Source of the DNA: a virus
Reading direction: 5' to 3' (one strand)
IMG/VR virus record: IMGVR_UViG_3300020472_000038
Span: 1-52,228 of that record
DNA: 52,228 bases
How positions within the stretch are numbered: position 1 is the stretch's first letter; each line of letters opens with the position of its first letter. The position numbers and the translations under genes were made by a program. Below are positions 741 to 50,558 of the stretch, piece after piece. The notes under the pieces were generated by a model, which worked only from the letters and a program-made list of their open reading frames with translations, was not told where the DNA came from and did no database searches.

Positions 741-773
741 AAAACTAGTGGGAGCTGAATAAGTTCTCACTAG
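741..773 (-). terminator. Hairpin terminator between gp32 and the minus-strand tail block
   Basis: A 10-bp stem with two G-T wobbles (CTAGTGGGAG at 745-754, TTCTCACTAG at 764-773) encloses a 9-base loop. Read on the minus strand it is followed by TTTT, as in a Rho-independent terminator, and the tape measure stop codon (770-772) lies inside its 5' arm. On the plus strand it follows gp32 but lacks a U tract, so it may only protect the gp32 mRNA end. Confidence 0.55.
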
Positions 774-3616: not shown

Positions 3617-3636
3617 TTATCTCTCTGTTATTTGTT

Positions 3637-4529: not shown

Positions 4530-4563
4530 AATGTTCTCCTTTTCAAATCATTATTTTATAATA

Positions 4564-5705: not shown

Positions 5706-5709
5706 AATA

Positions 5710-6153: not shown

Positions 6154-6176
6154 AAAACCGCCCAAATAGAATTTTT

Positions 6177-6184
6177 AATTTATA
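6177..6184 (-). promoter_or_regulatory. Probable late promoter (TATAAATT) for the gp4-to-tape-measure block
   Basis: Minus-strand TATAAATT, one base off the T4 late consensus, just upstream of gp4. The predicted start near 6170 gives a short leader to the ATG at 6153. The same bases border the Shine-Dalgarno of gp48 on the other strand. Confidence 0.5.
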
Positions 6185-6193
6185 GGAATAGTA

Positions 6194-7195: not shown

Positions 7196-7196
7196 T

Positions 7197-11618: not shown

Positions 11619-14240
11619 ATGGGAAATCCTGCAGTAGTATTTACAACTTATTCCATAAATTCTTCTACCTCTTGGGCAACCACAAATGTTTCTGGGCATG
11701 CTGCAAATTCTACAAGTTCACCCTTTGTTGAACTAAAAAGTGATTTAATTCCACACTCTGCAAAATTTTCTAATGGAGATTATTCTGTATCAGATTTTGA
11801 TACGATAAGAACTATAAAGACAGAGAATACTATTAATAATGACTCAAGTAGTGAAAGCTATGGAGATATCATTGGAACTCATGAAGATACTTTTTATTCG
11901 ACAAGAGGAACATTAGGAACTTTTGCTTTAAAGGGTGGACAATTTGAGTTATGTGCATTTGATACTGGTGAAAAGGGTGGTTCTGTTAAAGACCACATAA
12001 GTAAGTCGGGAGTAAGTCATAACTATGTTGCATTTGCAAATTCTGGTGATGGAAAGGGTTTAACTCATACTAGTTCTGGAACTGTTATTGGAGCTGCCAC
12101 TGCAGTAGTTGGCCCACCAACTGCTTATTCTGGAACTAAACCATTTGCAAACATTGAGTATAATGTCTCTCATACTTCAACTCCATTACAAGCAATAGCA
12201 GGTGGTGGGCAGACTCCAGCTATTACAGTACCAGGCAGAACTTCTGTGGATGGATATTATGTTAGTTCAACTGCAGATACAAATATTGGAAACGAAAGCT
12301 CTCCAAATTGGCAGTTTTATTGGACTATGGGTAATGTAGGATCAAGGACACAAGGATCAAACATAATAAGATACCATAAGGGTAAAGGAACAAGAATAGA
12401 AGGATCTGGTGAAGACACATACACGGTTTCTGTCGATGTCAACAGATCAAACACTTCCAATTTAATAGTAGAAAATTGGTATCCACAAGCAAGTTTTAGT
12501 GAATCAACTACCACTTCTGCTGTACATCAAGGAAATATTAAATTTAGAGTACATCCAGATTCAGAATATGTGATGAGTGAAAATATGACAACTACAAATG
12601 TAGCTGTAGCTTCTGTAACAATTGCTCCTAGTGGTGATGTTGGGCCCATCGCTACACATTCTAAAGTAACAGTTACTACTTCTGATGATCATGGATTAAC
12701 GGATGAACAAAATCAAATAGTAATAACTGGTTGTGATAATCCTACTCATATTAATGGAATTCATAATGTTCATTCCGTATCAAATACGACAGTTTTTACT
12801 TATGAAATTATAAAAAGTACTGTTCCAGAAGGACAAACAGCGGAAGGTGATATTAAATTACAAACTTATGATGGAATAGACAAAACAGGAGCGGTCATCA
12901 AAGTTTCGGGGTCAGGAAGTGGAGCTGGGATTGCAGAAGTTGTACATGGGGGTTGTGCAGGAAATAATATTGTTCTTCTTAGGGGAGATACAAGTTCAAA
13001 TATATCTTTGGGTACTCAATATTACGTTTATACAGATAACTCTGCATCTACTCCAATTTCAGCTGTTAAATTTGCCAATGGCCCAACATACAAATCTATG
13101 TTTAAAGAGATGGGTCTTTTCCTTAATGAAAGTACTGGACAAATTTCTTCAAATGGAGCTTTTGCTGGTGGAACATCAATAGACACAATTTTATCTGGTG
13201 GTTATATAACTCTTGAAGATGGATTAGGAAATGTTTTTGGAACTGAATATATTCTACAAGAAGATGAATTTGAAGGTAAATTAGAAACTGAAGATCTAAT
13301 TCGTACTGTAAGGTTTGCGGATTCTGGATTAAATGAACTTGATTCTTATTTTTACAAATTTAAACACGCAAGAGATTACGCGCTGAATAGAGTAAAGACT
13401 GATGGAACAATTACTCAAACTGGTGATGTAGTTACTATTCAAGGAGTTGATGCTGTTAGTAATATTATTTCACTTGAAGATGGAACAGGAGGTATAACAA
13501 CAGAAGGAGGATATTTCACAATCAGCCTTGAGACTGGCTCACAAACTTTCCCAACCAAGTTTGCAAATGCATTACCTTCACCCGCAAGGTTTATATCTTT
13601 AGAATATCAAAATGGGTTTAGCACTAATGTAAGTTATACAACATCAAATAGTGAATTCGTAGTACAATCTAATGCGGAAATTAGTTTATCAACTGATACA
13701 GATGATGGTGAATCTTACCATCTCACTTATACAGATACTTCTTGGCCAGTTACAAATAGTAGTTCTTATTGGTTTATGAATAATGTAGAAAATGCTCCAG
13801 CTGTGGATGACCAAAGTAATATTTTAATTTTTAAAACAACTTCTGAAAGTACAAATTTCAAAGTGCATTTTACAATTAGAGCACAAAAATATCATGGACA
13901 CATGGGAGTTTATACTGGTGCCCAAGGAACTGGTAATGCCGCTTCGGTGTTAAATACTATAGATGGCTGGGGAGATGCATTTGAAACTGGTACAGGAAAT
14001 TATTATGATGGTTATTTTTGTGTTTCAGTTTACAATAATACTGATAGTGACAGGGATGATCTAATAGTAGTATATTCAGATCAAAATAATGCAATTACTA
14101 CTACATTAGATTTTAATGGTAATGCATTCAAACATAGGGATGATCCAGACGATCCAGCTACAGAAATTCCAATTCTTAATGAAGAAGCATTAGCAAATGC
14201 ATATTCAAATGGTGATTTCACAATTTTAGATTCAATATAG
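11619..14240 (+). CDS. Large virion protein of unknown function, spike/baseplate region
   Basis: 873 aa, not recognised as a T4 protein. It is Ser/Thr/Asn-rich and strand-rich with no signal peptide. At about residues 325-395 it carries a module widespread in marine phage virion proteins (VTVTTSDDHGL, QIVITG, HINGIHNVHSV, TTVFTYEI). Later parts contain acidic LEDG-type repeats (YITLEDGLGN; YILQEDEFEGKLETED; ISLEDGTGG), also found in gp7, gp14 and gp15 here. A segment SYFYKFKHARDYALNRVKTD appears helical. The gene lies between the spike (gp5) and PAAR tip (gp5.4) genes, so a baseplate-associated structural or fibre-anchoring role is likely (inference). Shine-Dalgarno AAGG lies upstream of the ATG. 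Confidence 0.6.
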   Translation: MGNPAVVFTTYSINSSTSWATTNVSGHAANSTSSPFVELKSDLIPHSAKFSNGDYSVSDFDTIRTIKTENTINNDSSSESYGDIIGTHEDTFYSTRGTLGTFALKGGQFELCAFDTGEKGGSVKDHISKSGVSHNYVAFANSGDGKGLTHTSSGTVIGAATAVVGPPTAYSGTKPFANIEYNVSHTSTPLQAIAGGGQTPAITVPGRTSVDGYYVSSTADTNIGNESSPNWQFYWTMGNVGSRTQGSNIIRYHKGKGTRIEGSGEDTYTVSVDVNRSNTSNLIVENWYPQASFSESTTTSAVHQGNIKFRVHPDSEYVMSENMTTTNVAVASVTIAPSGDVGPIATHSKVTVTTSDDHGLTDEQNQIVITGCDNPTHINGIHNVHSVSNTTVFTYEIIKSTVPEGQTAEGDIKLQTYDGIDKTGAVIKVSGSGSGAGIAEVVHGGCAGNNIVLLRGDTSSNISLGTQYYVYTDNSASTPISAVKFANGPTYKSMFKEMGLFLNESTGQISSNGAFAGGTSIDTILSGGYITLEDGLGNVFGTEYILQEDEFEGKLETEDLIRTVRFADSGLNELDSYFYKFKHARDYALNRVKTDGTITQTGDVVTIQGVDAVSNIISLEDGTGGITTEGGYFTISLETGSQTFPTKFANALPSPARFISLEYQNGFSTNVSYTTSNSEFVVQSNAEISLSTDTDDGESYHLTYTDTSWPVTNSSSYWFMNNVENAPAVDDQSNILIFKTTSESTNFKVHFTIRAQKYHGHMGVYTGAQGTGNAASVLNTIDGWGDAFETGTGNYYDGYFCVSVYNNTDSDRDDLIVVYSDQNNAITTTLDFNGNAFKHRDDPDDPATEIPILNEEALANAYSNGDFTILDSI

Positions 14241-18155: not shown

Positions 18156-20048
18156 ATGGCCGATGTAGCTTCTAAACTTAAAGTATCCGAATTAGATTTC
18201 GATGCTATTAAATCAAATCTTAAAAATTTTTTAGGTGATCAAAATGAGTTAGCTGATTATAATTTTGATGGTTCAGCAATGGCTGTTCTTATGGATCTTT
18301 TGGCTTACAATACTCATTACAATGCATTTTATTTGAATATGATTGTAAATGAGATGTTCCTTGATACGGCATCTCTTCGCAATTCCGTAGTATCTAGAGC
18401 CAAACATTTGGGGTATACTCCCACTTCTGTTAGGGGTGCCAAAGCTTATGTTGATTTAACCATCACTCCTGCAAACACTCCTGCAACGATTGTTATTGAT
18501 AAAGATACACAATTTAATACCACAGTAAATGGTATTTCTTATATATTTTCTACATCTAATTCTACTACTTTAAATGTCAACTCAAATGGTATATACACAA
18601 CAGCTAATGTAGAATTACAACAAGGTATTCTTTTAACACATAGGTATAGCGCAAATACTAATGATCCAGATCAAAGATTTATTTTACCAAATGCTAATAC
18701 AGATACAAGCTCACTTACAGTACAAATACAAACTTCTGCAACTAGTACAAATTTACATACTTATTCAGTTGCAAATGATACAACTTCAATAAACTCTACA
18801 GCTAATGTATACTTTTTAGAGGAAGATACAGATAGTAAATACAGAGTATATTTTGGAGATGATAATATTGGAAGAGGCCTAACAAGTGGTAATATTATAA
18901 TTTTGAAATCTTTAATAGCTGATGCAACTGCTCCAAATGGTGCAAAAACATTTACTCCTGTTGGTTCGGTTGGGGGATATTCAAATGTTACAGTAACGAC
19001 AGCATCGGCTGCAGCCGGTGGAGCAGATAGAGATTCTATTAGTGATATAAAATTTAATGCACCCAAAAATTATCAAGCTCAAAATCGTGCGGTTACAATT
19101 AATGATTATATTAGAATAGTTCAAAGAGATTATCCAGATGCAGAATCCGTCATAGCTTGGGGTGGAGAAGAAAATGATCCACCAGTTTATGGTAAAGTTT
19201 ATATGGCTGTAAAACCAGCTAGTGGATTACAGTTATCAGCTACTACAAAGAATTCTATCAAAAATGATATTTTATCAAAAAGAAATGTAGTCTCTATTTC
19301 AACTGAAATGGTAGATCCAGATTACTTATATTTGACTTTCAATAGTACTGTTAAATATGATTCTTCTAAGACTTCAAATACAGCAGCCACTATTTCAGAT
19401 TTAGTTTCTAATACTGTTTACAATTATGGTGTAGACAATCTTAAAGGTTTTGCAAATGAATTTAGATATTCACCTTTAACCAAAAAAATTGATGAATCTG
19501 AAACTTCAATTGAAAGTAGTCTTTCTACAGTTAAATTAACAAGAGTATTTGTTCCTACTCTTAATGTATCTAGTTCTTATGCTCTATCATATTCAAATGA
19601 AATTTTTCATCCTTATGCTGATTATGTAGATTCCGTTACTAGTACAGAATTTTCTCATTATGATGAAAGTGACACCTTACGAACAACTTGTAATATACAA
19701 GATTCTAATGGGGTGTTACAAGTTTATCGTACATCGGGAACAACAAGAATTATTGTTGCAAACAATGTTGGAACTGTTTCTTATGGTTCGGGTGTAGTCT
19801 CACTTGCTGGATTTAAACCAGTTGTAATTTCAGATGGTACTGCCAATTTATCAATAACTGTTGCATTAGCTTCAAGCGATGTTATTCCTGTCAGAGAACA
19901 AATTTTACTTATTACTAACAATAATATTACAGTATCTATGGTTGATACTTACGGAACAGGCACAAGCACTACTGAAGTGTCTTCTACTGCCAGTGGATCA
20001 ACCGCTGGAGGTACTTCTGGTAGTGGTGGTTCGGGAAGTAGTTACTAA
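18156..20048 (+). CDS. 6: Baseplate wedge protein gp6
   Basis: 630 aa (T4 gp6: 660 aa). gp6 dimers form the ring that holds the baseplate together. The N-terminal helical region is typical (LDFDAIKSNLKNFLGDQNEL, MAVLMDLLAYNTHYNAFYLN, then DTASLRNSVVSRAKHLGYTP). The middle has KYRVYFGDDNIGRGLTSGN, a gp6/gpJ family signature, and FNAPKNYQAQNRAVTINDYI leads to the DYPDAESVIAWGG segment and YGKVYMAVKP. The C-terminus ends in a Gly/Ser/Thr-rich tail (STASGSTAGGTSGSGGSGSS), probably flexible and unusual for gp6. The stop overlaps the gp7 start by one base (TAATG). Confidence 0.92.
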   Translation: MADVASKLKVSELDFDAIKSNLKNFLGDQNELADYNFDGSAMAVLMDLLAYNTHYNAFYLNMIVNEMFLDTASLRNSVVSRAKHLGYTPTSVRGAKAYVDLTITPANTPATIVIDKDTQFNTTVNGISYIFSTSNSTTLNVNSNGIYTTANVELQQGILLTHRYSANTNDPDQRFILPNANTDTSSLTVQIQTSATSTNLHTYSVANDTTSINSTANVYFLEEDTDSKYRVYFGDDNIGRGLTSGNIIILKSLIADATAPNGAKTFTPVGSVGGYSNVTVTTASAAAGGADRDSISDIKFNAPKNYQAQNRAVTINDYIRIVQRDYPDAESVIAWGGEENDPPVYGKVYMAVKPASGLQLSATTKNSIKNDILSKRNVVSISTEMVDPDYLYLTFNSTVKYDSSKTSNTAATISDLVSNTVYNYGVDNLKGFANEFRYSPLTKKIDESETSIESSLSTVKLTRVFVPTLNVSSSYALSYSNEIFHPYADYVDSVTSTEFSHYDESDTLRTTCNIQDSNGVLQVYRTSGTTRIIVANNVGTVSYGSGVVSLAGFKPVVISDGTANLSITVALASSDVIPVREQILLITNNNITVSMVDTYGTGTSTTEVSSTASGSTAGGTSGSGGSGSSY

Positions 20049-23000
20049 TGATAGAAGATGGTGGAATTCTTTATAGTCAGATAGATTCTCAACTCCCTAG
20101 TTTTGTTCAAACTGACCATACGAAATTTTCTAAGTTCATACAGAAATACTATGAATTTCTTGAACTAAATCTTATTACCTTTACAGATTTAGATCTTAAT
20201 GCCGATTCTATTATACAAGAAAAGGCAGATACCACATATACTATAACTGTTGCTACTGGTAATAACGCATTCAGTAATTCCGCAAATAAATTTTATGTTG
20301 ATGGTGCAGTTTCTCCAACCATAACTCTTATTCCTGGCGCACACGCAATTTTTGATCAAGGTGATGAAAATAATGTCGGTCACTATTTTCATATATCAAG
20401 AACACCAGACGGTATTCATACTGCGGGTGGTAAACAATTCACTACTGATGATAGAGAAGATGTTCTTTTTACTTTTGTAGGACAACCCGGCGATTATGAT
20501 AATATTACACTTGAAGCAGAAACTGGAATTTTACTTTATGAGGATTACCTAGACTCTGCCACTACTTTAGATAATCTTACACTTGAAGATGCATCTGGAA
20601 TTTTACTTTATGAAGATGATGTAGAACTTGGTTTTGAGACAACACCCGATAGAGAAATTGGTCTTGAAGCATCTGCTACTATAAAATTTTATGTTTCACC
20701 AGATCTTGCCGGTGAAACTCTCTACTACTACTGTAATAATCATTCTGGAATGGGTGGAAATATTACAGTATCTACAACAACAAGTTATATTTCTCAAGAA
20801 AATGGAAACACCCATTCTGCAAATACCTCTACTGAAGACTATCTTACTCTTGAAAATCCTAATAGACAAGGTGAACAATTTTTAAGTGGGGAAACTATTC
20901 TTGGAGCAAACTCTGGTGCTACAGGTATTGTTAGAGGAAAATATTCAACTACTCAAGCTTTTGTTGAAGAGACAAATCATGGTTCTTTTGAAGTTGGTGA
21001 AACTATTAAGGGTAAAACTTCAAGAGTCACTGCCACTGTAAATTCATATTCCAGACAACCAATAAATGCATCAAGAAATGTAAAAGCTTTCCAAGATATT
21101 GATAAAGCACCAGTTGGTTTTGTTGAACTTTTTAGAAAAGAATTTTTAACTGGATTTAGTAAAAATGATGATATTAATACCCCCAATCTACTTAAACATA
21201 TAAAAGATTTTTATCGTTCTAAAGGTAATGAAAATTCCTTTCGTTTTATTTTTAGTTTACTTTTTGGTATAGATGATGTAGAGTTTTATTATCCTGGCCA
21301 GGATATTATGAGACTTTCTGATGGAAGATGGACTCTTGATAAATCAGTTAAACTTCTTACAGACTCTGCAAGTTATGTAGATTCTTTTCTTGGTAGAACA
21401 ATCGTAGGTCAGACATCTAATGTTTCTGCTCTTGTAGAACGAATTGAAAGATATCATGTTGGAGCACAAGATATTACGGAATTATTTTTATCTGGATTTG
21501 ATGCTAATAACGCCGCTTATCAAGCAACTACAGGAACTAGCTATACTACGTTTTATTTGGGTGAAGTTATAACAGCTAATAGTGCAGACTCTGATGGTAA
21601 TTATGCAACAGCAACTACAAGTGGAGTTTTACAGGGCGTTGATATAGTCTATGGAGGATCTGGCTATAACAAAGGTGATGAACTACGAATTACTGGTGGA
21701 GGTGGTGCAGAAGCCAAAGCTAAAGTTAGTTCAATAGCTGCAGCTGCTCTTACTGGAATTGATGTTATAGATTCGGGAGATGGATATAGTGTAGGTGATG
21801 TAGTTACATTTTTTAATGATGGAACTGGTGGAACTGGTGGTTCTGCTAGAGTTCAAAGTATTGTTAAAACAGTAAATGTATTTACACAAACTGAAGTTAT
21901 TAGTACACAGGGGAGTACTACATTAGACGCAGCTGCATTTACTGCGCCGTGGGGAAGTTATAACAGAAATACTCATAGTTCATCAAACTCTACTACTACC
22001 TTTACTGTTCCATTTGATGGTCTTTCTGGTGGTGATACTCCGAAACAAGGAGATTTTATTGCAAAGTTTGGTAGTGGTGAAAGTATTTCTTTATATACTC
22101 CTGGCACTTCAAAATTTGGTACTGTTATTAGTACGAATTCTACATCTATTACTTATGGATTAGGTTCTATTGATTATACTACATCTTATAATTCAGATCC
22201 AACTCTTAATAATTTTGTAAATAATGATACAGTTGTTATTTTTGATCTCACCAAAGATAAAGATGGTTCTGCAGTAACATCTAATGCATATAACTCTACA
22301 TTCCGCGCGACTGGAGCAACCATTGCTATTAATGGAACACCAACTGCTAATACTGATAGTACTTATCATGGTGCAGCAACAATGCAGGAATCATCAATTG
22401 GTGGTATTCGTTCACTTCAAATAATGTCTTCTGGACAGGGTTATGAGACAATTCCCCCTGTCTCTATAGCAAACACCGAAATAACTTTTTACGATAATTC
22501 ACCAGAAAAGGTTGGTGCAAATTCAATATTTGTTAATCTTGCAAATACAGTTGCAAATATATTTACTTCAAACACTTTAATTAAGAATCAAGGAAACACT
22601 GCCTTTGGTATTCTCCTTGATTATCTTGATCTTGCTTCAACAACTTTAGCTGAAACAGGAAATACCACTCTCAGAATTCAGATGACAAGTGCGAATACAT
22701 TCAGTCCGAATGATGTTCTTACTTCTTATAGTAGAGCTGATAGTTCTCCAAGTGGAATTGGTGTTTTTGGAACTGCAAATATCTCAACATCTGGAACTAC
22801 TGCTACATTCACACAAGCAGATCATGGATTTGGTGCAGGAGATAGAATTGTAATTACTGGTTCTTCATCTGCAACAGATAATACTGTATATAACAACAAC
22901 CATACAATTGCAGGAATTACAAATTCCTCTGTTTACACAGTAACCCTTGCAAGTGATCCAAGTGATGATAGTGAAACCTCTTTAACTGTCAGAAAAATTG

Positions 23001-26000
23001 TTACAGCAAATGTGGTAGCTGATCTATTACTTACTGAAGATTCCACCACTACACAAATATCTTTTGAAAATGGAGTAGGAACTGCAAATGATGATTATAG
23101 TAGTTCTACAAGTAATGGATCTATTATAGTTGAAAGTGGAATAGATGAAGCAAATTCTATATTTGCAAATACTGGAATCCCTGGCAATAACGCAATTATT
23201 CAAGTTTCAAAACTTGCTGTTGGTGCAATTGAAAGTGTTTTAGTTTATGATTTTGGTGCTGGATATTCTTCAGCTCCAACAATTAATGCTTCAGCTGTTG
23301 GAGATGGTTCTGCAACATTGACAGGTAATGTTGGTGTTTATGCAGAATACTCTGGATATTTTGATGGTGAATATGGATTATTGAGTGGTACAAACAAAAT
23401 GCAAGATAACTTGTATTATCAAGATTTTTCCTATGTAGTTAAAACAAATAAAGACGTTAATACTTACAGAGAAAAGATATTAGAATTAGTACATCCAGCT
23501 GGAATGGCTTTGTTTGGTGAAATCTTAATGTCAGCTAACTTGTCTGTTAAATTATTTGATGATGGTACAAGTAACATAAGCAGTACTCAAGCAAATACTG
23601 AGATGGTTGCAAATTCAGTTAATGTTCCACGTTATCATCATCATGAAGTCGAATTTTATACTAAAGACACAACTTCAACCAACAATCAGATTTCAATGGA
23701 AAGGAGTTATGAACTTAAATCATTTTCTACTGAAATAACTATAATTGAAAAATTTGATGTAAACATGGACACTACTGGAGCTAGTAGTGATTTTGATTTA
23801 CAATTAGAACATGGTCATGATTTAATTTCTTTAGAAAATTCTGGTTTTTTCCTTGCAGCTGAAAATACTGGTGAACTTCTTCTTGAACGAGATATTGGTG
23901 GTGGAGTTGGAGATAGACTAATTGAAGAAACCGCGGACTTTTTACTAACTGAAGCCGAAATAGTTCATGTACTTTTAGAAGAAGATTCTAATGATACTGA
24001 TGAAGATATACTTCTTTTAGATGATGGAGAAACAGATAAAGGTAATGCTTCTATTATAGGTGCTTTATCAGACGAAAATCAAAGTGATTCTTCTCCAATA
24101 ATATATGAATTTTTTGAAGCAGAGCTTGGAAATATTCTTACTGAAGATGGTGATGGTATAGGTGTTAATTTAATAAGTACTGATGTTTTAGAAATAGAAG
24201 AATATAATGGTGACTTTATTGTTTTGGATGGTATTAGAGAGTTTGGTTATACATTGTTAGAAGACGGTGGCCAACTTCTTTTAGATGAAGTTACACTTAC
24301 TGGTGGGCCCATTGGATTTGAATCGGGGCGTGGTACAGTATTATTGAATAGTACAGATGGAGCTCCCGGCTCTAATGCTGGGGATCAAATTGTTACTGAA
24401 GATTATACATTTGAAGCAGAGCCTGGTTCTGTATTAACTGAAGATACTGGACTTGAAACTACAGGTGGTGGAACATATCTTGTTCAAGAAGATGAAGCTG
24501 GTAAATTTTCACAGGGATTTAAAATACAACAAGAGGGTGTTTTTACAGCTGTTATAACAGAAGGTCGGCTCGTACAAGAAAATGAGTTTTTTATATTACT
24601 TGAAAACCAAATAGCTTCAGCTGACTTTTCATTATCATTAGAACCTACAACTCCTAATGCATTTTCTGGCCCACAGACAGCTGTATATATGGAATTAGAA
24701 AATTCCATAGGTGGTGATTCTACTGTCAGACCAGATAAAATTTCACATTTTGTTTTAGAAGAAGATGAAGATTTAGTTCAAACTTTAACATTAGAAGATG
24801 GAACTGGTGACATTATATTTGAAAATGGTAAGGGTCATGTCCGTCTTGAAATACAAGGAGTAGCACAAACAGTTAAAATTCGTAATGAAGATGAAGCTTC
24901 AAATTTTAAACTTGAAGACTTTGAATCAGTTCTAGTACAAGAAGAACAATATCAAATTCAACTAGAATCTTATACTCTTCCCTCTCTTACAGATGTGGGA
25001 TTTCTTGTAAAAGAAGATAATGATGCTCTTCATCTTGAAGAAGCTGGTGCATATGATACTGATTCAGATGAGTTTTACGCTACTCACGGCCTCTTTACAT
25101 TTGTCAAAGCCTCAGCTAGATTAAATTCTCAAGATAGTGATATGAGAGATGTGAAGTTTAATAATGATGGAACTAAAATGTTTGCGTTAGGTAGGGGTAA
25201 TGATGGAGTTTATGAATATTCATTATCAACAGCATTTGATGTTTCAACATTGACTTTTGTTCAGAAGTTGGATATAAGTGGTGAAGAGACATCGGCGAAT
25301 AGTTTAGAATTCAATCTAGACGGAACTAAATTGTTTGTGTTAGGTCAATCTGATGATAATGTTGATGAATATGCTTTAAGTACAGGTTTTGATATCTCAA
25401 CAGCCTCCTTTACAGATAGTTTTGATGTAAGTACTCAAGAAACTGCACCTTATGGTTTGGCATTTAATAATGATGGAACTAAAATGTATGTTTGTGGTTG
25501 GAATGGAGATGACATTAATGAATATACATTAACAACTGCATTTGATGTTTCGACAGCATCATATTCTCAAAATTTTTCAATAAATGCTCAACGTGCAAAT
25601 GCATCAGCAGTACAATTCAATGCAGATGGAACTAAAATGTATGTTTTACAGGGCAACCAAAATTCTGATATTTTTGAATACGCACTAGTAACTCCATTTG
25701 ATATTTCAACAGCATCTTATACAAATAGAACTCATGATTTAACAAACGAAGAAAGCAGAGCAAGAGGCTTCTGCTTTAGTAATAATCATTCTCAGCTTTT
25801 TGTAACTGGTTGGACTGAAGATGAGATTAATGAATATACTGTAAATTATACTCTTCCAGATGAATCGGGAGCTGATTCTGGAATAGATGATACCCCCTTC
25901 TATTTTCGTCTTGAGGATGATGTAGATGCTAGAGCTTATCTGTTGGAAGAACCTACAACAATCTATCATAGGATTGAGAGTGAAAATCCAGCTGATGATT

Positions 26001-28471
26001 TTGTTATTGTTACGGATGACGCAGAAGATACTATAGTACTTGAAATAGAAGAATTTATTACTGATACAAATTTTAAAGGTGAGTCTTATGATACTGGAAC
26101 TGGCTTCATGTTACCGATGCTTATTTTTCCAACAGCCGAGTCTGGTTCTGCATTATTGGATCTTAGTTTTACAAGTAGAATAGTATTAGAAATTGATGAT
26201 ATTCAAAATGTAAGATTAGAAAATCAAGATGGTAGTCTTCTTTTAGAAGATGGTGGTGTTGTTTTTTATGAACAGCAACCTACAACATCTGTAGGTTATC
26301 AATATGATATGTTACTTCTGGAAGAATCTGATGGTACAAATCCAGTATTTATTGCTACAGAATCTTCTATGACTGAAGAAATAGATGGTATAGGAGAGAT
26401 TGAATTATTTTCTGATGGTAATTATTCACTTCAGCTTGAAGGTGCACATGGAATTCATGATAATGGACTTCTTGTATATGAAAATGGAGGTTTTACATTA
26501 GAAGCTGGTACTAATGCTGAAGGTGTTATTATTTTTGACGGGCCAACGGCTGATGATGGAGATAGATCTCTTTTAGAAGATGGAGTAGAAGATACAATTG
26601 GAGTGAATCAACCTCAAATTGCGGCATCAGTTAGATCTACAGTTTCAACTTTAAATACTGGTGACACTCTTAATGAAGGAAGTTTTCTTGGATCAGATTT
26701 TGGAGAGAGAACATATGGATCAGTTGCTCTTTCATTGTTACCTAGTGAATTTGAATTTTTGACTGAAGATGGAAAAACCTTTGTTACAGAAGAGAGTACA
26801 ACTAGAAAAGACAATCTTATATCTGAAGCTTATGATAGGGGAATAGTTGCAACAGGAACGGCCACTCAATTTGAATTTGATTTTAATAATCTTATAGTTC
26901 TTGAACCCGATTGGACTTTAGATGTAATTGAATTAGAAGATGGTTTGGGTAAAATAATAGATGAACACGGTTATACTGTTGTACTTGAGATTCAAGCTGC
27001 AAAACCAGAAGTTGGTGTGATTATACTAGAAACCGATACACCAGAAGAAAATTCAATTATTTTAGAATCTGATGACCCCGATGTTATTATTCCTCTTCAA
27101 CAAGAACAAGGAGAAGGTAAAATTTTTACAGAGGAGGATATACACCTATTAATTCCATCTCCCGAAAGACTTTGTGGTGTTGGACTTCATGATTTAATTT
27201 TAGAAGAAGAGGGCATTCTTCAAGAAGAATCTGACCAAATTAAATTAGAAGATTTTACACTTGATAATATTACTCAAGAAGATCCAGTTATGGGAGATTT
27301 TGTTCCTTATCTTGGATTTGGAGATGAGGGGGATAATTCTATAACTATAGATGATAATATGTTATTAGAATCTACAACGCACAAAACTGAAAATGTTTGT
27401 GTTCAGACTGAAGATGGTGATTTGATTGGACAAGAAGATGATGAAACATCTCATATAGTTTTAGAGGATTTTTATTTTAAATATTACAATGTAGGAACTA
27501 TTACTCAAACTGGAACAACCATAACTGTATCTGGAGGCCAATTTCCTTCTGCTGTTGTAAATAGTGGAAGATTTTTCTATGAAAGTGGTACATCATCAGA
27601 TCTTAGTGATAGAAATGGAGTCGAATCAACAGATATTATATCAATATCGGATAGTGGTCTGGAACTAACAGTTGAAGCTTCTAAATCAATAAGTTCTGCA
27701 CAACATTATAAAGTTGAATATGGACTTGATGATACTCCTGTAACCGCTCCAGCAGAATATTTGGTAATGGAAGCTTACACTCTTGATACTACAACTGAAC
27801 AAGTTAGAATTGATATAATTTTTAACGGAGAAGGCGATGTTAATCATGGATATACTAGGGGTGAAGATTCGGATGGTCTTGGAACTTATACTGTAAGTAT
27901 TTCAGCATTTGCTGATATCATAGGAAATGATGTTACATATGAAGATGGAGAAAGGATTTTAGCTGAAGATTCAATTGGTGGATATATTGCTTTTGAAGAT
28001 TCTACTCAAAATGTCTCTTTAGGAATTGCTCATGGAAAAATATTAAATGAAGATGATACTGGATGCTTCATATCAACTGAAGATCATGAAGGTAATGAGA
28101 CAACTCAAGATGATAATGTTCTCATGAAAGAAATGTCGGACGCACTTCTATTAGAAGATAGTGAAACTGAAACTTTGAATTATGTATTGAGTGAGGAAGA
28201 AGGACAAATGATGCTTGAAGATGTATTTCAAGTTTCAGAACATAAAATAATTATGGATAGTCATGATTCTATATTAATAGAAGACCAACCAGACGGTGAT
28301 AATTGGAATTATAAATTATTGAATATGGATATGGGAAGATTTGATATTGAAACAATAGCTAATAATGCATCTATGACTATTCAATTTACTGATTCATCAA
28401 CCAGTTCAACAGATTTTTTCAAACGATCTGATTCTGCCATACTCGTTTCAAGAACAGAACAGATTGTTTGA
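20048..28471 (+). CDS. 7: Giant gp7-like baseplate wedge protein with cupredoxin-like, propeller and LEDG-repeat insertions
   Basis: 2807 aa against 1032 aa in T4. The slot between gp6 and gp8 and the scaffold pieces at residues 1-60 (DSQLPSFVQTDHTKFSKFIQ, KYYEFLEL) and about 350-455 (NLLKHIKDFYRSKGNENSF, then DDVEFYYPGQDIMRLSDGRW) support gp7. The rest is a patchwork: a cupredoxin-like domain (about 62-242), SGETILGANSGATG-type modules, GSGY modules (about 530-610), an ADHGFGAGDRIVITG module (about 930), more than 40 acidic LEDG-type repeats (about 1250-1680 and 1945-2790), and a five-unit propeller-like repeat (about 1685-1935). TREKILELVHPAGMALFGEI-like sequence near 1140-1160 is a conserved marine gp7 segment. 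In T4, gp7 links gp6, gp8 and gp10 at the wedge periphery, so these insertions are probably exposed on the outer baseplate. Confidence 0.78.
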   Translation: MIEDGGILYSQIDSQLPSFVQTDHTKFSKFIQKYYEFLELNLITFTDLDLNADSIIQEKADTTYTITVATGNNAFSNSANKFYVDGAVSPTITLIPGAHAIFDQGDENNVGHYFHISRTPDGIHTAGGKQFTTDDREDVLFTFVGQPGDYDNITLEAETGILLYEDYLDSATTLDNLTLEDASGILLYEDDVELGFETTPDREIGLEASATIKFYVSPDLAGETLYYYCNNHSGMGGNITVSTTTSYISQENGNTHSANTSTEDYLTLENPNRQGEQFLSGETILGANSGATGIVRGKYSTTQAFVEETNHGSFEVGETIKGKTSRVTATVNSYSRQPINASRNVKAFQDIDKAPVGFVELFRKEFLTGFSKNDDINTPNLLKHIKDFYRSKGNENSFRFIFSLLFGIDDVEFYYPGQDIMRLSDGRWTLDKSVKLLTDSASYVDSFLGRTIVGQTSNVSALVERIERYHVGAQDITELFLSGFDANNAAYQATTGTSYTTFYLGEVITANSADSDGNYATATTSGVLQGVDIVYGGSGYNKGDELRITGGGGAEAKAKVSSIAAAALTGIDVIDSGDGYSVGDVVTFFNDGTGGTGGSARVQSIVKTVNVFTQTEVISTQGSTTLDAAAFTAPWGSYNRNTHSSSNSTTTFTVPFDGLSGGDTPKQGDFIAKFGSGESISLYTPGTSKFGTVISTNSTSITYGLGSIDYTTSYNSDPTLNNFVNNDTVVIFDLTKDKDGSAVTSNAYNSTFRATGATIAINGTPTANTDSTYHGAATMQESSIGGIRSLQIMSSGQGYETIPPVSIANTEITFYDNSPEKVGANSIFVNLANTVANIFTSNTLIKNQGNTAFGILLDYLDLASTTLAETGNTTLRIQMTSANTFSPNDVLTSYSRADSSPSGIGVFGTANISTSGTTATFTQADHGFGAGDRIVITGSSSATDNTVYNNNHTIAGITNSSVYTVTLASDPSDDSETSLTVRKIVTANVVADLLLTEDSTTTQISFENGVGTANDDYSSSTSNGSIIVESGIDEANSIFANTGIPGNNAIIQVSKLAVGAIESVLVYDFGAGYSSAPTINASAVGDGSATLTGNVGVYAEYSGYFDGEYGLLSGTNKMQDNLYYQDFSYVVKTNKDVNTYREKILELVHPAGMALFGEILMSANLSVKLFDDGTSNISSTQANTEMVANSVNVPRYHHHEVEFYTKDTTSTNNQISMERSYELKSFSTEITIIEKFDVNMDTTGASSDFDLQLEHGHDLISLENSGFFLAAENTGELLLERDIGGGVGDRLIEETADFLLTEAEIVHVLLEEDSNDTDEDILLLDDGETDKGNASIIGALSDENQSDSSPIIYEFFEAELGNILTEDGDGIGVNLISTDVLEIEEYNGDFIVLDGIREFGYTLLEDGGQLLLDEVTLTGGPIGFESGRGTVLLNSTDGAPGSNAGDQIVTEDYTFEAEPGSVLTEDTGLETTGGGTYLVQEDEAGKFSQGFKIQQEGVFTAVITEGRLVQENEFFILLENQIASADFSLSLEPTTPNAFSGPQTAVYMELENSIGGDSTVRPDKISHFVLEEDEDLVQTLTLEDGTGDIIFENGKGHVRLEIQGVAQTVKIRNEDEASNFKLEDFESVLVQEEQYQIQLESYTLPSLTDVGFLVKEDNDALHLEEAGAYDTDSDEFYATHGLFTFVKASARLNSQDSDMRDVKFNNDGTKMFALGRGNDGVYEYSLSTAFDVSTLTFVQKLDISGEETSANSLEFNLDGTKLFVLGQSDDNVDEYALSTGFDISTASFTDSFDVSTQETAPYGLAFNNDGTKMYVCGWNGDDINEYTLTTAFDVSTASYSQNFSINAQRANASAVQFNADGTKMYVLQGNQNSDIFEYALVTPFDISTASYTNRTHDLTNEESRARGFCFSNNHSQLFVTGWTEDEINEYTVNYTLPDESGADSGIDDTPFYFRLEDDVDARAYLLEEPTTIYHRIESENPADDFVIVTDDAEDTIVLEIEEFITDTNFKGESYDTGTGFMLPMLIFPTAESGSALLDLSFTSRIVLEIDDIQNVRLENQDGSLLLEDGGVVFYEQQPTTSVGYQYDMLLLEESDGTNPVFIATESSMTEEIDGIGEIELFSDGNYSLQLEGAHGIHDNGLLVYENGGFTLEAGTNAEGVIIFDGPTADDGDRSLLEDGVEDTIGVNQPQIAASVRSTVSTLNTGDTLNEGSFLGSDFGERTYGSVALSLLPSEFEFLTEDGKTFVTEESTTRKDNLISEAYDRGIVATGTATQFEFDFNNLIVLEPDWTLDVIELEDGLGKIIDEHGYTVVLEIQAAKPEVGVIILETDTPEENSIILESDDPDVIIPLQQEQGEGKIFTEEDIHLLIPSPERLCGVGLHDLILEEEGILQEESDQIKLEDFTLDNITQEDPVMGDFVPYLGFGDEGDNSITIDDNMLLESTTHKTENVCVQTEDGDLIGQEDDETSHIVLEDFYFKYYNVGTITQTGTTITVSGGQFPSAVVNSGRFFYESGTSSDLSDRNGVESTDIISISDSGLELTVEASKSISSAQHYKVEYGLDDTPVTAPAEYLVMEAYTLDTTTEQVRIDIIFNGEGDVNHGYTRGEDSDGLGTYTVSISAFADIIGNDVTYEDGERILAEDSIGGYIAFEDSTQNVSLGIAHGKILNEDDTGCFISTEDHEGNETTQDDNVLMKEMSDALLLEDSETETLNYVLSEEEGQMMLEDVFQVSEHKIIMDSHDSILIEDQPDGDNWNYKLLNMDMGRFDIETIANNASMTIQFTDSSTSSTDFFKRSDSAILVSRTEQIV
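20231..20773 (+). other. Cupredoxin-like domain within gp7 (residues about 62-242)
   Basis: Strand pattern YTITVATGNNAF, KFYVDGAVSPTITLIPGAHA, IFDQGD, then NVGHYFHISRTPDGIHTAGG, and finally ATIKFYVSPDLAGETLYYYC followed by NNHSGMGGNITV. The C-x2-H-x2-M cluster (Cys229, His232, Met235) with an upstream His (112 or 115) copies the ligand set of type I copper proteins such as plastocyanin. Between the ligand-bearing halves (about residues 150-200) sits an insertion of two LEDG-type repeats. Copper binding is inferred, not shown. Confidence 0.6.
20523..20613 (+). repeat. Paired 19-base direct repeat inside the gp7 cupredoxin-like domain
   Basis: CTGGAATTTTACTTTATGA occurs at 20523-20541 and again at 20595-20613, exactly 72 bases (24 codons) apart. 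It encodes the repeated GILLYED strand of two tandem LEDG-type units (LEAETGILLYED and LEDASGILLYED). Confidence 0.85.
23800..25080 (+). repeat. First block of acidic LEDG-type repeats in gp7
   Basis: Short units of the form (hydrophobic)3-LE(D/E/N)-x-G recur every 10-25 residues. Examples: LISLENSGFFLAAENTGELL, DILLLDDGE, ILTEDGDG, TLLEDGGQLLLDE, LVQEDEAG, LTLEDGTGDIIFENGKGHVR, LHLEEAG. Alternating hydrophobic and acidic residues predict stacked short beta strands. Confidence 0.75.
25099..25850 (+). repeat. Five-unit beta-propeller-like repeat in gp7
   Basis: Each unit reads FN-DGTKM-V-G---D-(I/V)-EY-L-T-FD(V/I)STAS. The GATGG/GACGG core lies at 25166, 25319, 25472 and 25625, exactly 153 bases (51 codons) apart; a degenerate fifth unit (FSNNHSQLFVTGW) follows 159 bases later. 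Length and the DG-turn-strand pattern are like YVTN/WD40-type propeller blades. Confidence 0.75.
25890..28440 (+). repeat. Second block of acidic LEDG-type repeats in gp7
   Basis: About 850 residues with the same unit as the first block, for example FRLEDDVDARAYLLEEPT, VRLENQDGSLLLEDGGVVFY, LQLEGAHGIHDNGLLVYENG, IELEDGLGKIIDEHGYTVVL, DLILEEEGILQEESDQIKLE, VLSEEEGQMMLEDV and ILIEDQPDG. The block runs almost to the C-terminus. Confidence 0.75.
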
Positions 28472-30257: not shown

Positions 30258-33200
30258 ATGGCACTAACAACTAATTTTAACGCTGATCCGTATTATGACG
30301 ATTATAATCCAGATGATGCGTATTATCGTATTCTTTTCCGGCCAGGTTTCGCAGTTCAAGCAAGGGAAGTAACACAATTACAAACAATATTACAAAAACA
30401 AATTGAAAGGCATGGAGCTCATACTTTCCAAGATGGTAGTATTGTACTAGGGTGTGAGTTAAATTATGATAATAACATAAAAACGGTTCAGTTAGAAACA
30501 CAGTTTGCTGGCGCTGATATTACTATTGGAGATTTTGCAAATGGAATCGTAACTGGTGGAACATCTAATGCCAGAGCTGTAGTTGTTTCAACTGCTGCGA
30601 CCACAACAACAGATCAACCAGTTATAGTGGTTAACTATTTAAATAACAATACATTTCAAGATGGTGAAACTATTACGGTTGAGGGTACATCAACTCAAGC
30701 AAATTCTGTAAGTTCTACAGGAGCTGCTGGTATATCTACTGGTGCACAAACTAATGCTGCTGTTATAAGTTGTCAATCTGGTGTATTTTATGTTGGTGGT
30801 TACTTTGTTTTTAAAGAAGCAGAGTCTATTATTCTTGAAAAATTTTCAAGTACTCCATCTTACAGAATTGGATTTCAAGTTACAGAGTCTATAGTAACTT
30901 CTGATGTCGATGGTAATTTATTAGACCCAGCACAAGGTGCGTACAACTATGCTGCATCTGGTGCCAATCGTTTTAAGATTGCTTTAGGATTAAGTGCAAA
31001 AGCTTATACTGCGGAAGATCCAGTTGAAGCCGCAGCAGATGAAAACTTTTATCAATTATTAAAACTTAGTGATGGTGTAAAAATTGAAGAAACAAATTAT
31101 CCAATTTATTCAGATTTAGAAAAAACACTTGCAAGACGGACTTATGATGAATCTGGTGATTATACATTAACACCATTTAATCTAGAATTAAAAACACATC
31201 AAGGTATTACTGGAACTACTGCTAATTCTGGTTCAGCTGCAACATCTACACTTACTGGTAATGGAAGTAGTTTTGATACAGAATTAGAAGCAGGTGATGT
31301 GGTATTTCTTACTGGAAACACAGCTCAAACTGCAACTATTGCATCTATTACAAACTCTACAGTTGCTACTCTAAACAACTTTTCTGGTGGATCTGGAACA
31401 TTAGTTACAAGTACTTCTGGTCAAACGATTAAATTTGAAAGTAAATTTTCGGCTGGCCTTGACCCCGGCAAAGCTTATGTAAAAGGATACGAATACGAAA
31501 GTATTTCAACAAAATATGTTACTGTTGATAAGGGAAGAGACACACTAACAGTCAATTCTCATTCTTTAAGTACTGCTTACGGAAATAAATTAAATGTCAA
31601 ACAGGCAAATGGTTATTTTGATATTGCACGACATCAAATAGTAGATTTATATGTAGGGAATGTCGCCACTCAAAATGTTTCTGGTTCTGGTGATTCAGAT
31701 AGTGTTTATGGAACAACTTTTTCTACAAGAAATTCACAAACTAAAATTGGTACTGCAAGAGTTAGAGATGTAGACTTTTTGGCAGCATCAGGTAATACTG
31801 CAAATGTAACACATTCACAGTCTGATTATTCTTTATATCTTTATGATATAAGAACTGCAAATTCTAAAACTGGAACTGTTGCTGATACCCCAAGAGAAAT
31901 AAATGCTGGTTCAAATGCAAACACTGCAACTGATGGATTTATGCCAGTTTTTTCAAAAGATACAACATCTTCTACATTTGAACCAAGAAAAGATATAATA
32001 ACAATAGGTACTAACAAGTATGGTAATACATCTTCTGTTAATTATCTTACTGGTGGTGGATCAACAAATACTGCTTTTGCAAAATTAGCACAAGTATCGG
32101 GGGTGTATGAAGGTGCAACAATTACAATTGTAACTCCAAGTTTAAACAAGATGTTGGGGTTTGATAGTACATATACTGGTGTTTATGGTATTTCTTTAGA
32201 ACATAATGGTTATACATTAACAAATGAGTATGATAAATCACTCGGATCACTTTTGTTAGAAGATCAAACAACTGATGTATCAAATACTACTTATACTAGA
32301 AATGTTATTACTTACACATCAAATTCGGATGTTGCTATTGTTCAAGTAGATTCTGATATGACCCACCGGCCATATTTTTCAGCAAATTCTACAGGTGGTG
32401 CAGTATCTGGTGAATGTTCAACTTTTGAAGTTTCATTCCAAATTAAGGATATTGATTCTATTGCTGTAACTAGTACCTCAGCAAGAACTGCTCACGCCGA
32501 AGTTGATGAAACTTCACGATACAATAATGTTGTTACTGCAAATACTGTTTTAGAAAATACACAACTTAATTCGTTGTTATTTCCACTTCCAGATACACCA
32601 TTATCTCTTGCAAATAATATAACATATACTTACAAGTCTACAAAAAATCTTACAACTGATTCGGGAGGTGTAGTAACATTTTCTTTGAGTGGAACTGATA
32701 CTTTTACAGATCTTGGAACACCAATATCAGCTGCAAAAGCTGAAGAGAATTTTATAGTCGTTGTGAGTGATAAACAAAGTGATGCATCCAATTCTGTGTA
32801 CACTGCAGTTACTGATGGTCAGTATCTTAGTTTCAGTAATACAGACGGTGTTAGTAGAACTATAAATGTAGCTTCTACTTCTGCAGTTATTGACTGTAAT
32901 ACAACATCAGCTATTAAACTTTCAGTTGCATACACTGCAAAGAAAGTTGCATTAACTGGTTCTGGTAAAACTAAAGCTATAGTTGGTGGAATTGTGAATA
33001 CTGCGTATAACAATTCAAATACTGGTGGTGCAAACAACATTCATACTTGGTCACCAAAAGGACAATATTTTGTGGATGCTCCATCAAGAATTACAGGAGT
33101 TAAAATTGATCTTCCTGTTTATGATGTATTTAATTTAATTAGAGTTGTTGATTCGGGATCTTTAACTGTTGATGTGTCTAATTCTATGATGATAGCTTCT

Positions 33201-37435: not shown

Positions 37436-39235
37436 ATGTCAGCTCATGTATTATTATCAGACACCTTTGACCAATGGCGGATGAAAACTAATGAGTGGTT
37501 GTCTATGACAAACTCCGCTGGTTCCTCATGTTCCATTAAATTACTTGATACAACCAATTCTACAAGTAATACTACAGGTTCAATAACAACAGCTGGTGGT
37601 ATGGGTCTTGGTTCAAGTGCGACTATTGGTGGAAATTTAACTCTTCACGGCCGTACAGATCTTAAAAATACAGTAAATTTTAAAGAAATAATTCGTACAC
37701 TATCAGAAGATGCGGATGACTTTGATCATCTTCTTTTAGAAGATGGTTCAACCGTTGATCCCAATGCTTCAATTGAAGGTTATGCATTAATAGAACTTCC
37801 CAATTATGTTGATATTGATGGTGCTGTACAAATTGATGGTTCTGTAACAGTCGGTGTAGATGGTACTGGTAGAGATGTTCTTTTTTTTGGTGATACTTCT
37901 GCACAATATATGTTATGGGATGAGTCAGCAGATGAGTTAGTTTTAGCTGGTGACACAAAACTGTCATTTCATGATGGAGCTGGTGGAGAAAATATCATTG
38001 CCCCCGCAGATGGACATTTAGAAGTCAATGTAGGAACAACTCTTGATATTACGGCACCCACAGTAGATATTAATGCAACAACTCTTAATGTTGATGGTGA
38101 AACTCAACTTACTGGTGCAGTAATAGTCGGTGTAGATGATACTGGATATGATGTAAAGTTTTTTGGTGCTACTTCTGGACAATATATGTTATGGGATGAA
38201 GATGCAGATGAATTAGTTTTAACAGGTGATACTAAATTATCTTTCCATGATGCAGCAGGTGATGAAAATATCATTGCCACTTCAGATGGTCATTTAGAGA
38301 TCAATGCAGGAACAACTTTAGACATTACAGCTCCCACAGTAGATATTAATGCAAGTACAGCTGTTAATGTTGATGGTACATCACAAATTAATGGTGCCTT
38401 AACAGTCGGTTCAGATGGTTCAGGTCATGATGTTAAGTTTTTTGGTGCGACTGCTAGTGCTTATATGATATATGATGCATCATCAAATGATTTAGAACTA
38501 GCTGGATCAGCAGTTTTAAGTATAGACAGTACTACAGACGCTACTGGAACAACAGATGGTTCATTTCACACAGATGGTGGTGTTGGTATAGCTAAAAAAT
38601 TGTATGTTGGAACAGATTTAGATGTAAATGGTACGGCAAATTTAGATGCAGTAGACATAGATGGAGCAGTACAGATTGATGGTACTGTAACAGTAGGTGT
38701 AGATAACACAGGGTATGATGTTAAATTTTTCGGTGCTTCTGCTGGTGCATTTATGTTGTGGGATGAATCAGAGGATACTCTTGAGATTCGTGGCCCATCG
38801 GCTGATGCAACTACAAGTACTGGTAAATTAAAATTATCAACTTCACTTACAGATATAAATGATGGTGATATATTAGGTAGTATTGGTTTTAAGGCTCCAT
38901 TAGAAGCAGGTTCGGGAGATGCGATATTAGTTGGTGCTTCGATATTTGCTGAAGCTGACGCAACATTTTCTTCATCAGTTAATTCAACTGATTTGGTGTT
39001 TGCTACAGGAGATTCTGCTGCTGCATCGGAAAAATTTAGAATCGACAGTACAGGTGTATGTACTTTTGCAGATGGTGCAATTGATGTAGATATTGCAAGT
39101 CATGATGGAACTAATGGATTAAAGTTAGGTGGAACACTCGTTACAGCTTTAGCAAAGGATTTAAATTCTATTCCTAACGAAGTAAATTTAGGCCAGTGTG
39201 CTGCCTTTTCTATTGTTTTTGCACCGCCAGGATAA
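37436..39235 (+). CDS. Tail fibre protein A, first of three paralogues
   Basis: 599 aa. The N-terminal 60 residues (TFDQWRMKTNEWLSM, NTTGSITTAGGMGLGSSATI) are shared with the two fibre genes downstream and probably attach to the baseplate. The shaft has repeats of about 92 residues (DGTGRDVLFFGDTSAQYMLW, DADELVLTGDTKLSFHDAAG, TTLDITAPTVDINATTLNVD), with the YMLWDE core at 276-base spacing. One LEDG-type unit (DHLLLEDGSTVDPNAS) lies in the neck. The C-terminal part (GSIGFKAPLEAGSGDAILVG, then ADATFSSSVNSTDLVFATGD) is a module shared with fibres B and 42639-43202, and the extreme end (NLGQCAAFSIVFAPPG) differs from the paralogues. Strong Shine-Dalgarno AAGGAG. Confidence 0.78.
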   Translation: MSAHVLLSDTFDQWRMKTNEWLSMTNSAGSSCSIKLLDTTNSTSNTTGSITTAGGMGLGSSATIGGNLTLHGRTDLKNTVNFKEIIRTLSEDADDFDHLLLEDGSTVDPNASIEGYALIELPNYVDIDGAVQIDGSVTVGVDGTGRDVLFFGDTSAQYMLWDESADELVLAGDTKLSFHDGAGGENIIAPADGHLEVNVGTTLDITAPTVDINATTLNVDGETQLTGAVIVGVDDTGYDVKFFGATSGQYMLWDEDADELVLTGDTKLSFHDAAGDENIIATSDGHLEINAGTTLDITAPTVDINASTAVNVDGTSQINGALTVGSDGSGHDVKFFGATASAYMIYDASSNDLELAGSAVLSIDSTTDATGTTDGSFHTDGGVGIAKKLYVGTDLDVNGTANLDAVDIDGAVQIDGTVTVGVDNTGYDVKFFGASAGAFMLWDESEDTLEIRGPSADATTSTGKLKLSTSLTDINDGDILGSIGFKAPLEAGSGDAILVGASIFAEADATFSSSVNSTDLVFATGDSAAASEKFRIDSTGVCTFADGAIDVDIASHDGTNGLKLGGTLVTALAKDLNSIPNEVNLGQCAAFSIVFAPPG

Positions 39236-49586: not shown

Positions 49587-50558
49587 ATGGCAACCAATCA
49601 TTACTTCAATCACTATGGAACAGATACACCAGATCAAAAATTAGTTGAAAACATCGTAATTGAGTCGATTAAATCTTTTGGTATTGATGTTCACTATATG
49701 CCTAGGACTGAAGTTAATACAGATTCTATCTATGGAGAAGATCGTATTTCTAAGTTTGAAGACGCTCGAATGGTAGAAGTTTATATTAAGAGTATAGATG
49801 GATTTGAGGGAGATGGTACATTTGTAAGTAACTTTGGACTAGAAGTAAGAGATCAAATTACTTTTACAATTGCTCGTAGAAGATTTCAAGAATTAAATTT
49901 TGAAACTGGAAATAGAGATAAAGAACCACTAGAGGGTGATCTTATTTTCTTTCCTTTATCTGACTCTCTTTTTGAAATCAAGCATGTACAAGATACGAAT
50001 GTTTTTTATCAAATGGGTGGACTACAAACTTTTGATTTAGTTTGTGAACTGTTTGAATATGGAGATGAAGCAATTGATACTGGTATTGAGGAGTTGGATA
50101 AGATAGAAAGAGAAGAATCCTATTCAATAAAATTCACTCTAGGTACTGGAGCTGGTACATTTACAGTCGGTGAACAAGTATATCAAGGTTCTACTGGATA
50201 TGCAAATTCTTCAATTAAAGGAGAAGTTTTTGATTGGAATTCTAGTACAAGTCTTCTTACAGTTGGAAATATTGTTGGAACTTTTGATGAAGATAATCAA
50301 ATGTATGAATATCCGTTTTCTATAGCATTAGAAGATGATACTACACTTCTGTTGGAAGATGGTACAACAAATACTCCAAACTCTTCAACTGAAGGTAAAC
50401 CCTTCTTTGAATCTGGTGCATCGTATGCCACAACATCTTTTGATGATAAAGTAATATCAAATGATGCTTATGCAAACAATGTTGGAATTGAAACTGTTGC
50501 TGATGGGATTTTAGATTTTTCAGAGGGTAATCCATTTAGTGAAGGAACAGGGTACTAA
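49587..50558 (+). CDS. 14: Neck protein gp14
   Basis: 323 aa (T4 gp14: 256 aa). Matches T4 gp14 through HYFNHYGTDTPDQKLVENIV, DVHYMPRTEVNTDSIYGEDR, SKFEDARMVEVYIKSIDGFE, FVSNFGLEVRDQITFTIARR and EGDLIFFPLSDSLFEI; the far C-terminus (FSEGNPFSEG) also resembles the T4 end (ESSPFDNDF). Between them lies an insertion with a GTFTVGEQVYQGSTGYANSS module and an LEDG-type repeat (IALEDDTTLLLEDGTTNTP), the same repeat that fills gp7. gp13 and gp14 form the neck ring that seals the filled head and accepts the tail. Its stop overlaps the gp15 ATG by one base (TAATG). Confidence 0.9.
   Translation: MATNHYFNHYGTDTPDQKLVENIVIESIKSFGIDVHYMPRTEVNTDSIYGEDRISKFEDARMVEVYIKSIDGFEGDGTFVSNFGLEVRDQITFTIARRRFQELNFETGNRDKEPLEGDLIFFPLSDSLFEIKHVQDTNVFYQMGGLQTFDLVCELFEYGDEAIDTGIEELDKIEREESYSIKFTLGTGAGTFTVGEQVYQGSTGYANSSIKGEVFDWNSSTSLLTVGNIVGTFDEDNQMYEYPFSIALEDDTTLLLEDGTTNTPNSSTEGKPFFESGASYATTSFDDKVISNDAYANNVGIETVADGILDFSEGNPFSEGTGY

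Follow-up and report, generated by a model that had tools for sequence, protein, structure and literature searches.

A short acidic repeat unit in unrelated tail proteins of a marine T4-like phage and its possible in-frame spread between genes

Phage tails normally evolve by swapping whole genes or whole domains. The window analyzed here, that is, the whole 52,228-nt (52-kb) stretch of IMG/VR virus record IMGVR_UViG_3300020472_000038, raises the question of whether much smaller pieces can be exchanged, as the wedge, fibre, and neck genes of a single genome appear to have traded a unit some nine residues long. The structural genes in the window are of the marine T4-like type; Pfam and PHROGs identify gp5-like, gp6, gp7-like (2807 aa), gp8, DUF4815, gp13, gp14, and gp15 proteins, with three fibre-like genes between the DUF4815 gene and the neck genes. 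Judging from the sequences, we consider it probable that a module consisting of a strand plus an acidic turn spreads in frame among these tail proteins by recombination and would form a variable, negatively charged outgrowth. This reading draws on units that are not random, on homology between genes in both HMM and DNA comparisons, on empty sites, on variation in copy number, and on a bias of insertions and deletions toward the turn.

The repeat unit and its carriers

An earlier note on this DNA had written the unit as three hydrophobic residues followed by LE[DEN]-x-G, a formula that proved too strict: it has no match in any window ORF, and its two-hydrophobic version matches twice in the window, both times in gp7. 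The underlying pattern was nevertheless right. With the relaxed form [ILVMFY]-[ILVMFYTQKRSH]-[LTQIVFS]-E-[DENSGAQ], the two gp7 arrays, at aa 1251-1665 and aa 1942-2807, contain 45 units, whereas shuffled sequences average 6.8 (20 at most) and reversal of the sequence leaves 3; the LE dipeptide occurs 38 times where 15.2 are expected. The claim of more than 40 units in gp7 thus stands under the relaxed definition and falls under the strict one. An EM motif derived from gp7 alone has the consensus [GDN]-x-[ILVF]-[ILV]-[LTQ]-E-[DEN]-[DGS]-[GTD].

The features carrying the unit are listed in Table 1. In the gp7-like protein, aa 337-584 match the PHROG_17744 baseplate wedge family (E 5.9e-38), the Pfam match is to Baseplate_wedge, and the gene is flanked by gp6 (18156) and gp8 (28524). 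When a 9-column PSSM trained on gp7 only was run over each of the 33 ORFs of the window, with shuffles as the control, matches exceeded expectation in every protein that the earlier note had named; gp5, gp6, and ORF 45190 gave borderline matches, no more than 33 tests allow. The gp15 region aa 227-283 holds 4 matches, compared to 0.24 in shuffles, and gp14 aa 244-260 holds 3 (p=0.02), while the best scores in fibre A (14.5, at aa 97) and in the DUF4815 protein (14.1, at aa 663) were each reached by 0 of 300 shuffles. The coordinates originally given for the units were accurate to a few codons, except that the gp7 stretch 23800-28440 is not continuous, being interrupted by a beta-propeller-like domain. 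The case for the unit appears strong in gp7, gp14, gp15, and fibre A, moderate in the 873-aa protein, no relatives of which were found, and weak in the DUF4815 protein, whose single unit, also present in L004, scores just 0.2 bits with the gp7-only HMM described below.

Table 1. Positions in the window of the unit-carrying features and related segments
Feature	Position	Strand	Evidence
LE units in 873-aa protein, aa 527-622	13197..13484	+	6 PSSM matches vs 0.23 in shuffles
gp7-like giant baseplate-wedge protein, 2807 aa, carrier of unit arrays	20048..28471	+	PHROG_17744 and PF23786
LE units, gp7 N-terminal part, aa 151-190	20498..20617	+	PSSM matches; absent from the earlier note's list
gp7 array 1, dense LE units, aa 1251-1665	23798..25042	+	PSSM matches; D+E 22%, K+R 4%; no Pfam match
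gp7 segment EIVHVLLEEDSNDTDEDILLLDDGETDKGNASIIGAL, homologue of the insert in fibre A	23957..24072	+	Local DNA alignment
79-aa unit block, aa 1395-1473, missing in 3/3 relatives, junction at ED|G turn	24230..24466	+	Alignment of relatives
Beta-propeller-like domain between the arrays, aa ~1666-1941	25043..25870	+	Weak Kelch match; tblastn relatives in phages
gp7 array 2, aa 1942-2807	25871..28468	+	PSSM matches; relaxed units
33-aa block, aa 2287-2319, after NLIVLE, missing in L002, L004, and L005	26906..27004	+	Alignment of relatives
Single unit GSLLLEDQTTDVSN in DUF4815 (VrlC-like) protein, aa 663-676	32244..32285	+	PSSM
Fibre A insertion with HLLLEDGSTVDPNASIEGYALIE, aa 76-124	37661..37807	+	Empty sites; gp7-only HMM; DNA match to gp7
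Fibre B, fibre A paralogue that lacks the unit and has a natural empty site near aa 75	39315..40988	+	74% identity with fibre A and a gap where the unit would be
gp14 C-terminal units IALEDDTTLLLEDGTTNTPNSSTEGKPFFE, aa 244-276	50316..50414	+	Beyond PF11649 (aa 4-178); HMM iE 6.6e-5
gp15 C-terminal units, aa 227-284	51236..51409	+	Beyond PF16724 (aa 6-215); copy number variable

The unit is enriched in phage virion genes: the density of PSSM matches in related gp7 loci is 6-10 per 1000 aa, with 0.28 in T4 structural genes, 0.1-0.7 in segments of other cultured marine myophages, and 0.70 in cellular contigs. Cellular genomes were also scanned by 17-mer, and the loci sampled from them resemble chance single copies, with no arrays. 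The literature searched contained no motif in this sense, three text matches to LLLEDG being other proteins. The papers on pelagimyophages and Melnitz report T4-like structural genes and curli genes, and a repeat of this kind is absent from the searched passages of both (PMC7029224, PMC9004378).

Two further repeats in the window are of other kinds. A minus-strand 948-aa ORF (770-3616) contains about 3 copies of a 222-nt tandem repeat (2516-3324), and 276/279-nt tandem repeats coding for VGVDxTGxDVKFFGAT... units are present in fibre A (37828-38452) and fibre B (39604-40240).

Predicted structure and charge of the arrays

The three consecutive hydrophobic positions of the unit are kept at 82, 78, and 58% of sites, and the spacing between units is mostly 8-10 aa, irregular beyond 12 aa. 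From this spacing and hydrophobic pattern, each unit is predicted to be a short beta-strand of three hydrophobics followed by an acidic Glu-Asp-x-Gly turn, and neighbouring units would pair as hairpins, as pairs like NITLEAETGILLYED suggest. The arrays are strongly acidic, with a composition of 22% D+E and 4% K+R and a net charge of about -18 per 100 aa, compared to -6 for the N-terminal half of gp7. It is plausible that they coat the tail with acidic strands, as the earlier note had proposed, because of this charge and because the genes that carry them encode tail, neck, fibre, and baseplate-region proteins. Considering the charge, the identity of these genes, and the rapid turnover of the units described below, the likeliest role would be that of a variable acidic outgrowth on the baseplate, fibre, and neck. 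An outgrowth of this kind, negatively charged and placed on the exterior of these structures, may tune contacts with the host surface or with divalent ions.

Alternatively, the arrays may be acidic linkers or bristles that are intrinsically disordered, lack hairpins, and act by charge and length alone, which we regard as rather unlikely but to be weighed seriously. The charge-hydropathy index of -0.02 is near the disorder boundary, the irregular spacing beyond 12 aa would fit, and the confidence of AlphaFold2 models is low: for gp15 of L049, pLDDT is mostly 70-89 in the core and 23-41 in the insert, and for a gp7 array modeled with a four-sequence alignment it is 27.5. However, these alignments are just 4-30 sequences deep, at which a low pLDDT is weak evidence, and runs of three hydrophobics in every unit are unusual in disordered bristles.

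PDB families gave no match to the arrays apart from a weak similarity (E 0.011) between gp7 aa ~2620-2702 (28000-28200) and 3ua0, the N-terminal domain of the heavy chain of silk fibroin, a likeness that is too weak to be relied on.

Homology between genes, empty sites, and turnover of units

Profile searches outside gp7 had been proposed as a check on the transferable-repeat idea. A 28-aa HMM built from the gp7 of four genomes only was searched over 1339 ORFs and their reversed decoys. The best families other than gp7 were fibre A (19.5 bits, iE 5.5e-5) and gp14 (19.2 bits and iE 6.6e-5 in the window, and up to 19.8 bits in relatives), both significant, compared to 4.7 bits for the best reversed sequence and iE values of 2 or worse among decoys. 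By BLASTP, the fibre A insert matches gp14 (E 8e-6) and gp7 (E 0.002). The insert is missing from the fibre A orthologues L142 and L143, and these empty sites, like the one in fibre B, represent natural before and after states of insertion. The homology extends to DNA: fibre A 37685-37794 (~110 nt) aligns with gp7 23957-24072 at a score of 60, where the maximum among 1500 random coding segments was 53. The corresponding place in gp7 is the best site in L002, L003, and L005 as well (scores 64, 70, and 58), and therefore the donor may have been the gp7 of a related phage or an older copy. DNA alignments of the other genes against gp7 are weak (gp14, p=0.03; gp15, 0.06; DUF4815, 0.09; 873-aa protein, 0.06), and homology to gp7 at the DNA level appears convincing for fibre A only. 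Leucine codons are shared as well, the synonymous combination CTT CTT TTA being used at 4 of the 9 LLL[ED][ED] sites in the window, compared to ~0.3 expected and to 0 of 15 control LLL sites, a count made without loci L092-L133, which had been retrieved by that same DNA pattern.

These results bear on whether the units share descent or are acidic, leucine-rich, low-complexity surface segments that arise independently in an AT-rich phage. Convergence of this kind would be easiest to accept for a short unit core made of common residues such as L, E, and D, and the DUF4815 protein and gp15 match gp7 over 6-12 residues only. Nonetheless, we find it unlikely as a general explanation in light of the separation between HMM hits (iE ~5e-5) and decoys, the 110-nt DNA match between fibre A and gp7, the shared leucine codons, and unit counts that far exceed those of composition-preserving shuffles. 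With regard to in-frame spread of the module, there is good support for transfer between genes in gp7, fibre A, and gp14 and for a change in copy number in gp15; transfer is probable for the 873-aa protein and doubtful for the DUF4815 protein. The earlier reading of the unit as a transferable repeat is, in this sense, borne out for gp7, gp14, gp15, and fibre A, moderately so for the 873-aa protein, and weakly so for the DUF4815 protein.

Comparison of relatives indicates that units are gained and lost rapidly. The gp7 relatives, which are ~60-75% identical, differ in the presence of blocks 10 to 282 aa long. In 5 of 7 such indels, the gap of the insert-less sequence falls directly after an E-D turn, compared to a background of 12-13% (binomial p ~0.0005, with seven events in all and gap placement partly ambiguous in repeats). 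One of the seven is the whole propeller-like domain, which has relatives in Roseobacter, Lentibacter, Maribacter, and Synechococcus phages by tblastn and is present in L002 but missing from L003 and L005, where the sequence is joined at ...LFEE|ND. The copies at gp7 aa 151-190 are hairpin-like and, by eye, lie within a cupredoxin-like stretch; L002 has 41 extra aa directly after that unit. In tblastn against INPHARED, array 1 found nothing at E up to 1, and the full gp7 C-terminal query matched mainly the propeller-like domain.

In the neck proteins, the units lie outside the conserved cores, which end at aa 178 in gp14 and aa 215 in gp15 according to Pfam, and are missing or different in number among relatives; the earlier note had called for this comparison with homologues. 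For gp14, the units are absent from L040, and L007 has an extra NLLTEGGDNLVREDGN block; the cultured phages HTVC008M (Pelagibacter) and Melnitz (OM43) have units at the same C-terminal place, but far fewer, and lack the long LLLEDG..NAS..G module. For gp15, relatives with the same flanks range from no insert (L013) through two or three units (the window and L006-L009) to many units over ~170 aa (L049-L051), the Pelagibacter-type gp15 (L059, HTVC008M) lacks the unit region, and T4 gp15 structures match positions 5-221 only of the A4 profile.

Probably, blocks of one to many units, of ~30-110 nt and more, were copied in frame between virion genes of the phage lineage, with phage recombination as the presumed agent. 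The targets would be loops and tails of proteins that are unrelated to one another, namely gp7, fibre A, gp14, gp15, and probably the 873-aa protein. The concentration of gain and loss directly after the E-D turn, where even a whole propeller-like domain sits, may arise in one of two ways: recombination may use the repeated turn-coding DNA, or polar turns alone may tolerate inserts. More tentatively, and with the chances rather against it, this may be a new class of intragenic mobile peptide module, in which turn-coding DNA serves as a preferred landing and exchange site and modules, even whole domains, are traded in frame among the tail proteins of marine T4-like phages to give new tail architecture.

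Three observations in gp7 and its neighbourhood stand apart from these comparisons. At 26226-26265, a 21-nt tandem duplication (1.9 copies) yields two adjacent units and is likely a recent slippage event. In L113, a gene directly after the gp7-like gene (3085-4161, minus strand) encodes a 359-aa protein made almost entirely of LE units, for which no relative was found in IMG/VR or INPHARED (INPHARED tblastn, E up to 1). The L113 gp7-like protein itself (4164-7781, minus strand) has a second, longer type of recurring unit, (I/V)(V/L)(L/F)(D/N)GTDSxS..GD.(I/L)L.E, with one similar copy in the window at 24335-24400.

Comparison with known mobile and repeat elements

Promiscuous Ig-like domains, such as those of T4 Hoc, are autonomous folds of ~90 aa found on tailed-phage virion proteins. 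The LE unit resembles them in its optional presence on unrelated virion proteins, even between close relatives, often at ends or in loops, and both are probably surface accessories. It differs in its size of ~9 aa, its arrangement in variable arrays, and its lack of similarity to any Pfam domain; Pfam Ig and Big families did not match the arrays, and no Ig fold of ~90 aa was found.

The nearest parallels in coding DNA are PARCELs and the palindromic elements of Rickettsia and Wolbachia. The PARCEL (DUF285/TIGR02167) is a 25-aa helical tandem repeat of membrane proteins with strong dyad symmetry and, like the LE unit, is an in-frame, repeat-coding element with a hydrophobic/hydrophilic pattern that is shuffled from gene to gene (PMC2996958). 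The LE unit is, in contrast, strand-like, located in phage tail proteins, and weak in dyad symmetry, with a modal spacing of 8-10 aa rather than 25, and DUF285 had no Pfam match to the arrays at E up to 1. The Rickettsia and Wolbachia elements are, as PMC2996958 describes them, selfish palindromic coding DNA inserted as short segments in frame into unrelated protein genes. In-frame insertion with empty sites is found for the LE unit in fibre A, gp14, gp15, and gp7, whereas a palindrome spanning the whole element is not, perfect arms being at most 9 bp and present in few units only; the LE units differ further in that they occur in virion genes and have been amplified into arrays.

This comparison frames the possibility that a palindromic DNA element of the Rickettsia or PARCEL sort is what spreads and that the peptide is merely tolerated, to which we assign a low probability. 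Besides the in-frame insertions within unrelated genes, it could draw on dyad symmetry that is slightly elevated in the DNA of the units (mean longest stem 3.83 vs 3.50 in a synonymous null), an elevation not seen at random positions, and on the perfect 8-bp arms in fibre A. The effect is tiny, however, and most units have no palindrome. In addition, ORFs rich in units turned up among the virion genes, and none in the replication-gene segments of HTVC008M or Melnitz, a distribution consistent with selection acting on the protein. By the features tested, the LE unit appears to belong to none of the Ig-like, PARCEL, or Rickettsia-type classes, yet it behaves like them.

RTX repeats have GGxGxD turns and single hydrophobics. 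The idea that the unit belongs to a calcium-binding RTX-like beta-roll or another known acidic repeat family is very improbable, for although both are acidic repeats on a scale of roughly nine residues with Gly/Asp turns and hydrophobic strand positions, E-D in the window units follows three hydrophobics, the consensus differs, Pfam scans found neither RTX GGxGxDxUx/HemolysinCabind nor any other repeat family in the gp7 arrays, and the weak fibroin match is the only solved structure with any similarity.

If in-frame spread of a strand-and-turn module is correct, the tail genes of this phage would offer a case, open to direct testing, in which small in-frame insertions build new contractile-tail surface, and the process would explain part of the "hypothetical" bulk in the giant baseplate proteins of ocean phages.

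The tails of the neck proteins, that is, the C-termini of gp14 and gp15, seem to be hotspots for added domains. The gp15 of Mosig (L137, 16386-17984) has 532 aa with a large C-terminal addition that has no LE units and is LamG-like by eye, and the gp14 of L052, L053, and L055, at 838 aa, carries large non-LE C-terminal additions that are likewise LamG-like by eye.
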